Of a stretch of DNA of 56,280 bases, positions 28,698 through 36,350 are shown piece after piece. How positions within the stretch are numbered: the stretch's first letter is position 1; each line of letters opens with the position of its first letter. Position numbers and translations under genes: made by a program. Below the pieces are notes generated by a model. The model had not been told where the DNA came from, searched no databases, and worked only from the letters and a program-made list of their open reading frames with translations. This DNA comes from an uncultured Verrucomicrobia subdivision 3 bacterium (lineage in GTDB: Bacteria > Verrucomicrobiota > Verrucomicrobiia > Limisphaerales > UBA11358), in the NCBI GenBank assembly GCA_903888765.1, contig CAISVF010000087.1, positions 1 to 56,280 of the forward strand, in the 5' to 3' direction.

Positions 28698-29849
28698 ATG
28701 AAGGTAGCCGTCACCACTCTGGTATTTTGTGTCACCAGCCTCCTCGTTCTGGGGCTGGTGATGCTTTATAGCGCCAGTATGATGATGGTGGATAAGCACA
28801 CACACTCGGAAATCGGCGCCCACATGCTGCAAATGCAGATGGTGTGGTGTGTTCTGGGGTTTATCGCCTGCGTGGTGCTGGCGGTTATGGACTATGAATT
28901 GCTGAAACTGTTAGCCCTGCCGCTTTTTATTATTTCGCTGTTGCTGGCCGCCCTGGTTTTCACCTCGCACGGCGTTGAGTTCAACGGTGCCCGCCGGTGG
29001 ATCCGTCTGCCGGGTGCCACTTTCCAGCCATCCGAAGTGGTGAAAATCACGGTTATCATCATGGTGGCCTGGTTGGGAGATTATGCGCAGCGCAAAATAA
29101 AAACCTTTCAATGGGGCATTCTCGTTCCCGGAAGCATTGTTGCGGCGGCCTTGGGCTTGATCTTTATCGAACCGGACCGGGGTACGACCATCCTGCTTGG
29201 CGGAGTCACCGGGACCATGCTGTTTCTCGCCGGAGCTCGCTGGCTGCATCTAATACCAACGGCCTTGGCAGCTGGCGCGGCGCTGGTGTATTCACTGAAA
29301 CACGACTCCATGCGCACCGGGCGCATCAACGCCTGGCTACACCCGGAGGCGCATGCCAATGGGGTGGCATTGCAGGCGGAACAGGCCAAAATTGCCATCG
29401 GCTCCGGTGGATTTACCGGGCTGGGACTTGGCGATGGGCTGCAAAAACACGGATTCCTGCCCGAAATTCAAAGTGATTTCATTTTCGCAAATATCGGTGA
29501 AGAACTCGGCCTGGTTGCAACCGCGCTCGTCCTGCTGGCCTTCCTGCTGATTGCCCTTTGCGGCCTTTTTATTGCGCGCCGGGCACGTGACCAATTTGGA
29601 AGCCTGCTGGCAATAGGCATCACCTCACTCATCAGCTATCAGGCTATTATTAACATCAGTGTGGTGACCAGTCTCGTTCCCAACAAGGGGCTGGCTTTGC
29701 CGTTCATCAGTGCCGGCGGCTCCAGTCTGGTGGCGATGCTCATTGGCGTGGGGCTTTTGCTCAGCGTGGCGCGGTACGCGAGCGCAGCACCCGTTTCAAC
29801 ACCGGACTTTGTCGCTGACGACAACCCTTTTGCCGCCAAGGCAGCATGA
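28698..29849 (+). CDS. ftsW: Septal peptidoglycan polymerase / SEDS protein FtsW
   Basis: FtsW is the SEDS-family glycosyltransferase that polymerises lipid II at the septum with FtsI. The 383-residue protein has about nine or ten membrane helices. Family motifs are NGARRWIRLPGATFQPSE, IFIEPDRGTT, GGFTGLGLGDGLQK (a variant of the GxxGxGxG region), SDFIFANIGEELG, and LPFISAGGSSLVA at the C-terminus. The stop overlaps murG (ATGA at 29846-29849). Presence with ftsI in one operon fits their known complex. Confidence 0.96.
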   Translation: MKVAVTTLVFCVTSLLVLGLVMLYSASMMMVDKHTHSEIGAHMLQMQMVWCVLGFIACVVLAVMDYELLKLLALPLFIISLLLAALVFTSHGVEFNGARRWIRLPGATFQPSEVVKITVIIMVAWLGDYAQRKIKTFQWGILVPGSIVAAALGLIFIEPDRGTTILLGGVTGTMLFLAGARWLHLIPTALAAGAALVYSLKHDSMRTGRINAWLHPEAHANGVALQAEQAKIAIGSGGFTGLGLGDGLQKHGFLPEIQSDFIFANIGEELGLVATALVLLAFLLIALCGLFIARRARDQFGSLLAIGITSLISYQAIINISVVTSLVPNKGLALPFISAGGSSLVAMLIGVGLLLSVARYASAAPVSTPDFVADDNPFAAKAA

Positions 29850-32933: not shown

Positions 32934-33899
32934 ATGTGGTTTAGGCGAGAAAGAAACAAAAACCGTCGCAAGCACCGGAACCATGTGCTGGACGTCAAGC
33001 TGCGCTCCGACCAGGTGCGAGCGCAGCGCTTGCGACTGCTCGTGATGTCAGTGCTGGTGGTGGTCGGTCCGTTTTTGGGCATCTATCTCCTTTGGCGGGC
33101 GGGCGAGGCGGGGTTGGATTTTTTTGTCTATGAAAACGCTGACTTTGCCATCCAGCAGATTGATGCCCAATCGGACGGCGTGATTGCACCCGAGCAACTG
33201 CGCCGCTGGGCCGGGGTAAAGTCAGGGGCCAACCTGATCAGACTCGATCTGGCGTCAGTGAAACGCAATCTGGAGCTGGTTTCAGCGATTGATTCGGTCT
33301 CGGTGGAACGCGTGCTGCCGCGGACGCTGAAAATCCGGGTGACGGAACGCAACCCCATTGCCCAGGTTAACGTGCCACGGGCGGAAGGGCCCACTGGGAT
33401 GGCTTTCAACGTTTTTCAACTTGATGCTGATGGCACGGTGATTCAACCGCTGGATCCACGTTTAAGTCAGGTTTCACCGGGGCAGATGAATGCACTACTC
33501 CCGGTGATTACCGGGTTGACGGTGGGGCAACTCCAGCCAGGTCGGCGGATAGAGCAGCCGCAGGCGCAGGCAGCCATCCATCTGGTGGCAGCCTTCAGGA
33601 AATCACCCATGGCCGGGTTGGTGGATATGCGACGCGTGGATGTTTCTGCCCCGGGCGTACTGGTGGTTACCACGGGGCAAGGCGGAGAGGTCATTTTTAA
33701 ACCGGATAATTTGGAGCGGCAATTGTCCCGCTGGCGGGCAGCTTATGACTGGTCGCTGGCCCGGCAGAGATCAATTTTATCCCTGGATTTGGCAGTGGCC
33801 AACAATCTGCCGCTGCGCACCATGCTAGCCAGCACCGTAGCGGCCACTCCAATCAACAACCTGCAACCCATAAGAAATCGGAGGCAACATGTTCGATGA
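32934..33899 (+). CDS. ftsQ: Cell division protein FtsQ/DivIB
   Basis: FtsQ links the cytoplasmic and periplasmic parts of the divisome. The 321-residue protein has a basic cytoplasmic start (MWFRRERNKNRRKHRN), a membrane helix at about residues 38-60 and a POTRA domain (FAIQQIDAQSDGVIAPEQL to VLPRTLKIRVTERNPIAQV). The FtsQ beta domain ends in ARQRSILSLDLAVANNLPLR. Length is slightly above E. coli FtsQ. Its last 11 bases overlap ftsA, whose ribosome site GGAGG lies inside it. Confidence 0.9.
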   Translation: MWFRRERNKNRRKHRNHVLDVKLRSDQVRAQRLRLLVMSVLVVVGPFLGIYLLWRAGEAGLDFFVYENADFAIQQIDAQSDGVIAPEQLRRWAGVKSGANLIRLDLASVKRNLELVSAIDSVSVERVLPRTLKIRVTERNPIAQVNVPRAEGPTGMAFNVFQLDADGTVIQPLDPRLSQVSPGQMNALLPVITGLTVGQLQPGRRIEQPQAQAAIHLVAAFRKSPMAGLVDMRRVDVSAPGVLVVTTGQGGEVIFKPDNLERQLSRWRAAYDWSLARQRSILSLDLAVANNLPLRTMLASTVAATPINNLQPIRNRRQHVR

Positions 33900-35121
33900 A
33901 TCTAATATCGTGGTCGGTCTGGAGATCGGCACATCAAAAATTTGCGTGGTGGTCGGGGAAGAAAATGCGGAAGGCGCACCGAATATCATCGGGTTGGGCC
34001 AGTCCCTTTCCAACGGAGTTCGCAAAGGCGAAATCTGCGATCAGGAAAAAGTCGAACACGAGTTGCGCCTGGCCATTAGCGAGGCTGAGCAGATGGCGGA
34101 TGTGGAAATTCGTAGCGTTTATCTGGGCGTCACGGGAGGACATATTCGCGGGTTCAATAATCGGGGTAAACATCCGGTAGTCACTGCTGACCGTGAAATT
34201 TCCGAGGACGATGTCCAGGATGTCATTAAGAATGCCAAGGCGATCAACCTTCCGAGTGAAAACACCGTGATTCACGCGGTGCGCCAGAACTTCTGCGTGG
34301 ACGGCCAGGATGGAGTGATGAAGCCCGTCGGTATGCTCGGGTCATGGCTGGAAGTGGATATGCACGTTGTCCATGGCCACGCGAATCGCCTGCAAAATGC
34401 TATTCGTCTGGTCAAGGGAATGCAGGTGGAAGTGGATGATGTGGTGTTTAATGGTTTGGCATCGTCGCTGGCCGTGCTCAACAATGAGCAAAAAGAATTG
34501 GGTGCGCTGGTAATTGATATCGGTGGCGGCACCACGGAATACGTGGTCTATGTTGAGGGCGGCATCCGGCACAGCGGGGTGCTGGCGGTGGGGGGAGACC
34601 ATCTTTCCAATGACTTGGGCCATGGATTAAAGCTGCCCTTGAGTCGGGCGGAAAAATTGAAGCGTGACAATGGTTCGGCCCTGGTAAAAGAGGAGAACCG
34701 AGGGCAAACGCTGTCGCTGCTGAATGAGTTTGGCCTGGCGGTCAAAACCGTAAATGTCGAATACCTGCAACGCATCATGTCGCTGCGGCTGGAAGAACTT
34801 TTCGAGATCATTGCCCAGGAATTGGAGCAGGCGGGACTCACCAATTATTTACGGGCCGGAGTTTTCCTTACCGGAGGCAGTTCACGGGTGCCGGACATTG
34901 AAAAACTCGCGGAACGGATTTTTCAGATGAACGTGACGCACGGCCATGCGGACAGCGTGGGCGGAATCACGGCAGCGCTGGATCAACCCGAATTCGCCAC
35001 GGCTATTGGACTGGTTAAGTATGGGGCGCTGAAAAAACGCCAGCGAGTTCAGCGTCCCAACCTGACAACAGGCCTGAAAAATATGACTAACATGGTTGGC
35101 CGGCTGCTGCAACGCTCTTAA
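33889..35121 (+). CDS. ftsA: Cell division protein FtsA
   Basis: FtsA is the actin-like ATPase that tethers FtsZ to the membrane. The 410-residue protein has the phosphate-1 motif VVGLEIGTSKICVVVGE, the 1C domain, the phosphate-2 motif LVIDIGGGTTEYVVY and the adenosine motif FLTGGSSRVPDIEKLA. The C-terminal amphipathic helix (NMTNMVGRLLQRS) is the membrane-targeting sequence. All ATPase motifs look normal, in contrast to the downstream ftsZ. A strong GGAGG ribosome site lies upstream of the ATG at 33889. Confidence 0.96.
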   Translation: MFDESNIVVGLEIGTSKICVVVGEENAEGAPNIIGLGQSLSNGVRKGEICDQEKVEHELRLAISEAEQMADVEIRSVYLGVTGGHIRGFNNRGKHPVVTADREISEDDVQDVIKNAKAINLPSENTVIHAVRQNFCVDGQDGVMKPVGMLGSWLEVDMHVVHGHANRLQNAIRLVKGMQVEVDDVVFNGLASSLAVLNNEQKELGALVIDIGGGTTEYVVYVEGGIRHSGVLAVGGDHLSNDLGHGLKLPLSRAEKLKRDNGSALVKEENRGQTLSLLNEFGLAVKTVNVEYLQRIMSLRLEELFEIIAQELEQAGLTNYLRAGVFLTGGSSRVPDIEKLAERIFQMNVTHGHADSVGGITAALDQPEFATAIGLVKYGALKKRQRVQRPNLTTGLKNMTNMVGRLLQRS

Positions 35122-35132
35122 AAAGGATGCAT

Positions 35133-36350
35133 ATGGAACCCCATCTTTCCCTGGCGCCAGAAGAAAACCCCAAGCGGGTGGCGATTAAAATTTTTGGTGT
35201 GGGCGGTGCCGGTATTACTTTGCTTTCGGCGGTCAATACCTCCGAATTTGCGGGGATTGATTTTGTTGCCGTGGACGCCGATTCGCCGGCGGCAGCGAAT
35301 GCCACAGTAAAAATTCAGCTCGAAACCAAACTGCTGCGCGGTCTCGGATCCGGCGGCGATGTGGAGCGGGGACGCGCGATCGCTGAGGAGCAGTTTTCCA
35401 CGCTGAAATCCGCCTGTGAAGGTGCCAATGTCATTTTCATCCTGGCCGGTCTGGGAGGTGGTGCCGGCAGCGGCATTAGTCCGGTGCTGGCGAAAGCGGC
35501 CCGGGAGGCGGGCGCGCTGGTTCTGGCCTTCGTCACCCTGCCTTTTGAATGTGAAGGGAACCGCCGGGAGGCGCAGGCTCAACAAAGTCTGGAGGCTTTG
35601 CGCTTAGTGGCCGATGGCGTCATTTGCCTGCCATGCCAGAAAATTTTCCGGCTGGTGGACGAAAATACCGGGGTCGTGGAGACCTTTCAAACTATCGGCC
35701 GCCTGCTCCTTGAGGGAGTTCGCGGCGTCTGGCAGTTATTGGTGCGCCCGGGTTTGATTCCAATTCATTTCTCCGATCTGTGCTCGCTGCTACGCGATCG
35801 TCATGCTGAAAATGCCTTTGCGTTTGTCACGGCCACCGGTCCCGCTCGCGCCCGCGAAGCCGTGGAGAAAATCCTGTCACACCCGCTCTTCGATGATGGC
35901 CGGGTGCTGGCGGAGTCTAATGCCGTACTAGTCAGCCTGACCGCAGGGAAAGACCTTACCATGGCGGAGATGAACCGCGTCATGGACCACATAAAACGCC
36001 AATGTACCCATGCTGAAATAATCATGGGTGCCTCCGTGGACGCCACCTTGCAGGAAAAACTTTGCGTGACGGTTATTGCAGCCAAACGAGGTTTGCATAC
36101 GAACAAAGAAGAACCGGCGCTGTCGATCACACCGCGAGGAGAGGCCACGTCCCTTTTGCCGGGGCATCACCGGGAATCATCCGTCCCGCGTTCCGGGCGG
36201 ACGCGACGGGCCGGAGCCAAACTCATACAGACGCAACTGCCCCTGTCCATAGTATCACGCGGGCGCTTTGATAAAAGCGAGCCCACCCTGCATCAGGGCG
36301 AAGATTTGGATGTGCCCACGTATTTGCGGCGCGGTGCCGTTTGGCAATGA
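35133..36350 (+). CDS. ftsZ: Divergent FtsZ with degenerate GTPase motifs
   Basis: The gene lies in the normal ftsZ position. The protein (405 residues from ATG 35133, which has AAAAAGG at ideal spacing; an ATG at 35127 is too close) is clearly of FtsZ fold: FGVGGAG at the start, VTLPFECEGNRRE in the middle and the C-terminal DLDVPTYLRR tail that in FtsZ binds FtsA. Several functional residues differ from the canonical protein. GGGTGTG is GGGAGSG, NTD is DAD, and the base-contacting PND is PCQ. The AND/D187 region reads IGR, and the T7 loop NxDFADV is PIHFSDL, losing the Asn and first Asp. GTP binding and hydrolysis are therefore doubtful; whether it polymerises is unknown. Confidence 0.88.
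   Translation: MEPHLSLAPEENPKRVAIKIFGVGGAGITLLSAVNTSEFAGIDFVAVDADSPAAANATVKIQLETKLLRGLGSGGDVERGRAIAEEQFSTLKSACEGANVIFILAGLGGGAGSGISPVLAKAAREAGALVLAFVTLPFECEGNRREAQAQQSLEALRLVADGVICLPCQKIFRLVDENTGVVETFQTIGRLLLEGVRGVWQLLVRPGLIPIHFSDLCSLLRDRHAENAFAFVTATGPARAREAVEKILSHPLFDDGRVLAESNAVLVSLTAGKDLTMAEMNRVMDHIKRQCTHAEIIMGASVDATLQEKLCVTVIAAKRGLHTNKEEPALSITPRGEATSLLPGHHRESSVPRSGRTRRAGAKLIQTQLPLSIVSRGRFDKSEPTLHQGEDLDVPTYLRRGAVWQ

Follow-up and report, generated by a model that had tools for sequence, protein, structure and literature searches.

The window analysed here is a stretch of 56,280 nucleotides from an uncultured Verrucomicrobia subdivision 3 bacterium (contig CAISVF010000087.1, forward strand). 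At the end of its division and cell wall (dcw) gene cluster, directly after ftsQ and ftsA, lies a gene whose product is an orthologue of FtsZ by descent, gene position, fold and tail. Judged by its sequence, the protein is a variant and not a canonical member of the FtsZ GTPases. We class it so because the canonical signatures are absent, namely GGGTGTG, N-x-D-F-x-D and the guanine contacts N165 and N186 (here C165 and G186). An alternative in-frame ATG start lies 5' of the open reading frame, at 35127. The gene and the features of its product are as follows:

35133..36350, plus strand: ftsZ orthologue of 405 amino acids, dcw cluster (open reading frame; Pfam and NCBIfam profiles)
35196..35225, plus strand: T1 loop GVGGAGITLL, with Thr at the position of E. 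coli N24 (alignment)
35274..35282, plus strand: DAD replacing NTD (E. coli 43–45; N43D, T44A; alignment, placement less certain)
35454..35474, plus strand: T4 phosphate loop GGGAGSG (E. coli GGGTGTG, 105–111; T108A, T110S; alignment)
35541..35567, plus strand: PFECEGNRR, keeping the equivalents of E138 and R142 (alignment)
35631..35639, plus strand: PCQ replacing PND (E. coli 164–166; N165C, D166Q; alignment)
35694..35702, plus strand: IGR at E. coli 185–187 (N186G, D187R; alignment)
35760..35780, plus strand: T7 loop PIHFSDL against NVDFADV (207–213; N207P and D209H, D212 kept; alignment)
36228..36332, plus strand: conserved C-terminal block, made up of the FtsA-binding-type tail LDVPTYLRR and an upstream GRF...EPT box

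Residues are numbered by alignment to E. coli K-12 FtsZ (L090), and a second, independent alignment was made to B. subtilis FtsZ; what is said here of conservation outside Verrucomicrobiota rests on these two proteins, the cited papers and general background. The original prediction, made from the sequence of the window alone, had listed GGGAGSG, PCQ and IGR as departures from the canonical site. All three are borne out by the E. coli alignment, and the first two by the B. subtilis alignment as well. A glycine stands at the position that contacts the base (E. coli N186, B. subtilis D187), and the T4, PND and T7 motifs were placed identically in the two alignments. Two further claims stood in part. 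DAD for NTD is seen in the E. coli alignment, but its placement at 43–44 is less certain, as the two proteins differ in length by two residues next to it and a further alignment (A3) puts it elsewhere; nor is it typical of the genus, in which N43 is kept in 27 of 34 genomes. The T7 loop, described as lost, is indeed changed at N207 and D209, but the second catalytic aspartate, D212, is retained within FSD.

That the protein has the FtsZ fold with an intact tail was confirmed. The Pfam Tubulin and FtsZ_C domains scored 104.4 bits (cut-off 33) and 64.7 bits (cut-off 27), the fold predicted from 29 of the 119 other listed homologues together with 38 more distant sequences spans the whole core, and the tail peptide is found in the E. 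coli alignment, its pattern recurring in 32 of 33 genus members, where by its sequence it would serve to bind FtsA. The score against TIGR00065, the NCBIfam FtsZ equivalog, was 233.6 bits, below the curated cut-off of 295.2; among relatives, L003 also fell below it (229.7 bits), and L065 and L199 lay above (321.5 and 314.7 bits). The protein was not identified as BtubA/B, the match to 2bto reaching only 22.7 bits, compared with 197.3 for B. subtilis FtsZ. Just before the tail, a loose GxF...EPT pattern matched 32 of the 33 sequences from the genus and 92 of the 124 from elsewhere in the order.

The neighbouring FtsA had been called normal, and its profile score agrees. The adjoining division genes are:

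33889..35121, plus strand: ftsA, canonical by profile (TIGR01174, 361.6 bits against a cut-off of 175.85; solved FtsA relatives)
32934..33899, plus strand: ftsQ (weak NCBIfam FtsQ match of 24.7 bits, below cut-off, plus position)
28698..29849, plus strand: ftsW (TIGR02614, 346.5 bits against a cut-off of 337.5)

Also 5' of ftsZ are genes that we take, from their translations, to be mraW, ftsI, murF, mraY, murG, murB and ddl.

We then followed the altered positions through FtsZ from 248 genomes aligned with the E. coli and B. subtilis proteins (250 sequences; G027 was excluded). The genus set comprised 34 genomes labelled with the same genus, the window included, one of them a fragment without T7, so that T7 counts are out of 33. 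A draw of 193 genomes represented the phylum, of which 188 gave a match and 90 were aligned (the 30 best-scoring and 60 chosen across families). Within the genus, Ala108 was present in 33 of 34 genomes, Ser110 in all 34 and His209 in 32 of 33; N24 was absent from all 34 and N207 from all 33. N165 was lost in 27 of 34 (kept in seven), and Gly186 was found in 28. E138 and R142 were each kept in 34 of 34, F182 in 33 of 34 and D212 in 32 of 33, the remaining one having Glu. The change at D166 is order-wide, with Gln in 109 of 124 other order genomes. Of nine site residues, a mean of 3.3 was kept in the genus (n = 33), 6.2 in other members of the order (n = 124), 7.2 in other members of the class (n = 38) and 5.9 in other members of the phylum (n = 50), where the class and phylum values are not population frequencies because genomes were partly chosen by score and family. 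A homologue search passed 5135 proteins; among the 120 listed, the window protein included, GGGAGSG occurred in 112 and His209 with Asp or Glu at 212 in all 120. The names ‘Verrucomicrobia subdivision 3’, ‘Limisphaerales’ and ‘Pedosphaera’ were among those of the 28 loci in named genomes. We conclude, from these alignments, that the GTP-site changes are a fixed trait of the lineage.

Such a trait might be no more than ordinary divergence, in an FtsZ that looks odd and hydrolyses GTP normally. Verrucomicrobial FtsZ is, with some Candidate Phyla Radiation (CPR) copies, among the most divergent of bacterial groups, in a source whose passages seen here do not discuss the GTP site (PMC9871819). In Verrucomicrobium spinosum, excerpts of one report describe ftsZ as essential, binary fission as canonical and the FtsZ C-terminal extension as unusual (PMC12283558), and an early paper, in the part seen, terms this FtsZ canonical (PMC1845146). 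D209 is also missing from G347 and G350, probable family relatives of V. spinosum, a link drawn from their tubulin genes. Divergence alone, however, does not force the site to change, because in order families f20 and f23 all 14 genomes retain every listed site residue except F182 (F or L), and T108A by itself nearly abolishes the GTPase of E. coli FtsZ according to excerpts of PMC5979038. We therefore regard normal activity as very unlikely.

The original prediction had suggested that a second, true FtsZ might lie elsewhere. The window genome (5.4 Mb in 621 contigs, 92.9% complete) held one gene matching PF00091 and one matching PF12327, both of them the window ftsZ, and no second FtsZ by these profiles. 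Of 144 order genomes searched, 141 had a tubulin-family gene, and in 140 of these it was single. Another FtsZ-like family, A2 (L321–L332; GGGTGNG; 62% mean identity over five members), does exist in 17 of 193 phylum genomes at more than 490 bits, three of the 17 matches containing one TAA. Its profile gave no match in the window genome at E 0.001, and in the order only five of 144 genomes matched, all below 30 bits and at ftsZ places. As the gene at issue is also the dcw ftsZ adjoining ftsA, the notion that it is a paralogue working beside a true FtsZ is hardly credible. The single genome with two genes, G152, carries a very divergent tubulin-like protein of 492 amino acids with the motif GGGYGAGAG (L170:1454-2932).

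The gene is under purifying selection in this lineage. The dN/dS ratio was ∼0.03 to 0.19 across the 10 most similar genus pairs, with a median of 0.17 and a maximum of 0.33 over the 355 of 528 genus pairs with 0 < dS < 1.5; the window gene and its nearest relative differ by dN 0.15 and dS 1.90. Columns in contact with the nucleotide, from a list partly supported by passages of PMC8456036, had a mean entropy of 0.40 within the genus, compared with 0.75 for the core, and a fraction of 0.0024 of 5,000 random column sets was as low. Little or no variation is seen in the glycine loop or at E138 and R142; drift is concentrated at G20, N24 and N165, and less at N186. This pattern is what would be expected of a protein that still grips the phosphates and no longer selects strictly for guanine. 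A sequencing error or a pseudogene was ruled out by the low dN/dS and by the sharing of the changes among the listed homologues.

We give roughly even chances to the following reading, that this is the sole Z-ring protein of the lineage, bound to nucleotide and anchored by FtsA, with very slow or no hydrolysis and hence a static or slow ring. We infer nucleotide binding, polymerization, low GTPase activity and a static ring from sequence comparison. Subunits would bind nucleotide through the conserved phosphate loop and stack head to tail, and FtsA would tie the ring to the membrane through the C-terminal peptide. GTP hydrolysis would be very slow or absent because T108A alters one side of the subunit interface and D209H, with Pro or Gln at 207, the other. 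Filaments would as a result be static or have a slow turnover, with guanine recognized only loosely. Septal wall synthesis (FtsW/FtsI), and not treadmilling powered by GTP, would drive constriction. In E. coli, an FtsZ(T108A) fusion with almost no GTPase forms rings that do not treadmill (excerpts of PMC5979038 and PMC8175707), and D212A still makes filaments and rings; D212G is cited as supporting division, in one study only with suppressors (both from parts of PMC4383033 and PMC5405962). Of the original prediction, slow or absent hydrolysis is plausible, because the residue loss is fixed and stands beside a normal FtsA; the site is not simply dead, because D212, E138 and R142 are kept.

Several observations weigh against a static or slow ring. 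The key catalytic aspartate D212 is kept almost throughout the genus, and His209 is as conserved as the rest of the site, as would suit a working active site. Taken together, the T7 columns show no exceptional conservation in the genus (entropy 0.61, 0.26 of random sets being as low). T108A is known from E. coli FtsZ without D209H alongside it, E. coli FtsZ(D209A) formed aggregates and not filaments in yeast (PMC3684127, in part), and treadmilling is reported to be essential in B. subtilis (PMC8079713, in part). For the window genome alone, given its completeness, a second gene may be missing.

A rival reading is a rewired GTPase, in which His209 and Asp212 replace the canonical pair of aspartates and Ala108 and Ser110 are tuned to the new site. 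A catalytic histidine is used by some other GTPases, e.g. EF-Tu. The constancy of His209 with an acidic residue at 212, in the genus and in the listed proteins, would fit such a site, as would the keeping of E138, R142 and F182. We examined the pairing of Ala108 with His209 in a FastTree tree built with the 11 diagnostic sites left out and rooted on E. coli (245 tips, including E. coli and B. subtilis). Five of the 250 aligned sequences stood outside it: G347 and G350, for which the open reading frame picked was a bacterial tubulin, and G153, G129 and G096 (one fragment and two poorly aligned). The genus formed one clade (33 tips, support 1.0). N207 was kept in 105 of the 245 tips (minimum 27 changes), D209 in 133 (19), D212 in 158 (28), both T7 aspartates in 61 (23), T108 in 157 (25) and E138 in all 245 (no change). 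Among the 157 order and genus sequences Ala108 occurred with His209 in 42 and with Asp209 in none, and only one of the 48 Ala108 tips in the tree, G294, has D209, the others having His or another residue. His209, however, arose once, in a clade of 64 tips, and again in a single tip (G067), and Ala108 has one main origin inside that clade (57 tips, with reversions) and two small groups elsewhere, so that the pairing is not independent proof of coupling; we also rejected it as proof of an intact subunit interface, since the tree reduces each change to about one origin. T108 is, moreover, required for hydrolysis in E. coli FtsZ (PMC5979038, in part). We consider a rewired hydrolase somewhat unlikely, and keep to the static or slow ring.

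The window protein differs from canonical FtsZ (E. coli, B. subtilis, M. tuberculosis) by T108A, by the loss of N24, N165, N186, N207 and D209 and by its score below the NCBIfam cut-off. Of laboratory mutants, E. coli FtsZ(T108A), which makes rings without treadmilling (PMC5979038, in part), carries the same substitution; T108A and D212A/G were nevertheless engineered one at a time, in a cell adapted to the wild type, whereas the changes of the window are natural, multiple and fixed, with D212 kept. The FtsZ of Nitrosopumilus maritimus is likewise natural and lacks the conserved GTP-binding motif and apparently the T7 motif, and it did not polymerize in yeast (PMC3684127, in part); that organism is thought to divide with Cdv, whereas no replacement was found in the window genome, where the phosphate loop is under selection. 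Ca. Thiosymbion oneisti FtsZ is a natural weak GTPase that did not polymerize in vitro and formed rings in E. coli (PMC8953583, in part), but it is proteobacterial and is likened here by activity and not by motifs. FtsZl1 and FtsZl2 are also divergent FtsZ-tubulin members, T6-H7 being unidentifiable in FtsZl1 (PMC2875224, in part); they usually occur alongside a conventional FtsZ, and the gene neighbourhoods of FtsZl1 are its own, whereas the window gene is the dcw ftsZ itself. In the open-licence papers searched, mostly by titles and abstracts, we found no account of lost GTP-site residues or of shortened FtsZ in Verrucomicrobiota. How far division needs FtsZ GTPase and treadmilling, and how the Planctomycetes–Verrucomicrobia–Chlamydiae (PVC) bacteria lost FtsZ, are questions usually probed with laboratory mutants. 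Whole lineages in which a natural T108A/D209H FtsZ is the sole copy detected offer a natural test of the GTPase requirement.

Loss of catalytic-site residues is, on the alignments, not peculiar to the window gene and recurs across Verrucomicrobiota. In family f49 of the same class, 17 sampled members keep N24, T108, E138, R142, N165, N207 and D209 and have T, A, S or G in place of D212. When 70 diverse FtsZ sequences from Verrucomicrobiota are compared, no more than six columns never vary: a T1 glycine, the Pro and Glu of PF..E, and D, P and R in the C-terminal tail. A profile (A1) was run against 15 genomes that had no tubulin match, a weak one or a second one, and 12 of them matched. In four genomes of family f75 (G244, G316, G351 and G319), FtsZ-derived frames of 257–304 amino acids overlap or adjoin ftsA; an N-terminal part, weak in G319, is followed directly by the tail, with model positions ∼200–340 missing. 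In the same family, G345 has a frame of 247 amino acids that is not beside ftsA and shows little beyond the tail, and two other sampled members, G240 and G331, still carry longer forms. Within the order of the window, a frame of 439 residues occupies the place of ftsZ in a murB-ddl-ftsQ-ftsA cluster of G107, and one of 526 residues follows ftsA in G094; in both only the later part and the tail can be recognized, the GTPase part being unrecognizable. Lengths of these shortened relatives are those of stop-to-stop frames. Their loci are:

L340:3086-3997, L341:2056-2856, L342:1442-2212 and L343:1275-2060: tail-bearing short frames of the f75 type, T7 loop and C-terminal domain missing
L348:4010-5326 and L347:1642-3219: frames of the G107/G094 type in the order, in the ftsZ slot after ftsA

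The sampled f75 and f77 genomes with a shortened or badly degraded dcw FtsZ also carry the A2 protein, which possibly replaces it there; no A2 match was found in G094, G107 or the genus of the window.

Relatives elsewhere in the phylum that keep the tail without the T4 motif, or without any of the T7/C-terminal half, lend something to the view that the window protein is itself a passive platform for FtsA that no longer uses nucleotide, as do the altered guanine-side positions (T24, C165 and G186). If nucleotide were unbound, however, one would expect drift in the glycine loop and at E138 and R142, all of which are fixed or almost fixed in the genus; we find a nucleotide-free scaffold unlikely. 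Our order of preference is therefore the static or slow Z-ring, then the rewired His-Asp hydrolase, the nucleotide-free scaffold and, fourth, ordinary divergence.

More tentatively, and with the balance somewhat against it, FtsZ may be shifting across Verrucomicrobiota from a GTP-driven polymer to an FtsA-bound adaptor, the window gene representing an early step that is still under selection. Catalytic residues would go first (as in the genus of the window and in class members without D212), then the T4 motif, then the T7/C-terminal half, with the tail remaining; the endpoint would be division without FtsZ, as it occurs in Planctomycetota and Chlamydiota, two related phyla. Three genomes (G085, G306 and G264) had no ftsZ by the A1 profile and no ftsA above cut-off, the best scores being 53–62 bits over part of the model, probably to proteins of MreB or DnaK type. 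These may reflect FtsZ-less division or assembly gaps, and they were not used. Other lineages show the loss in stages, as far as a remnant next to ftsA that retains the tail, and so provide intermediates in series as well as proteins ready for testing. In the two carriers of bacterial tubulin, G347 and G350, the FtsZ frames are ∼600 amino acids long and have the T7 loop KLGLDDL, in which D209 is lost (L336:1311-3230 and L337:1319-3109).
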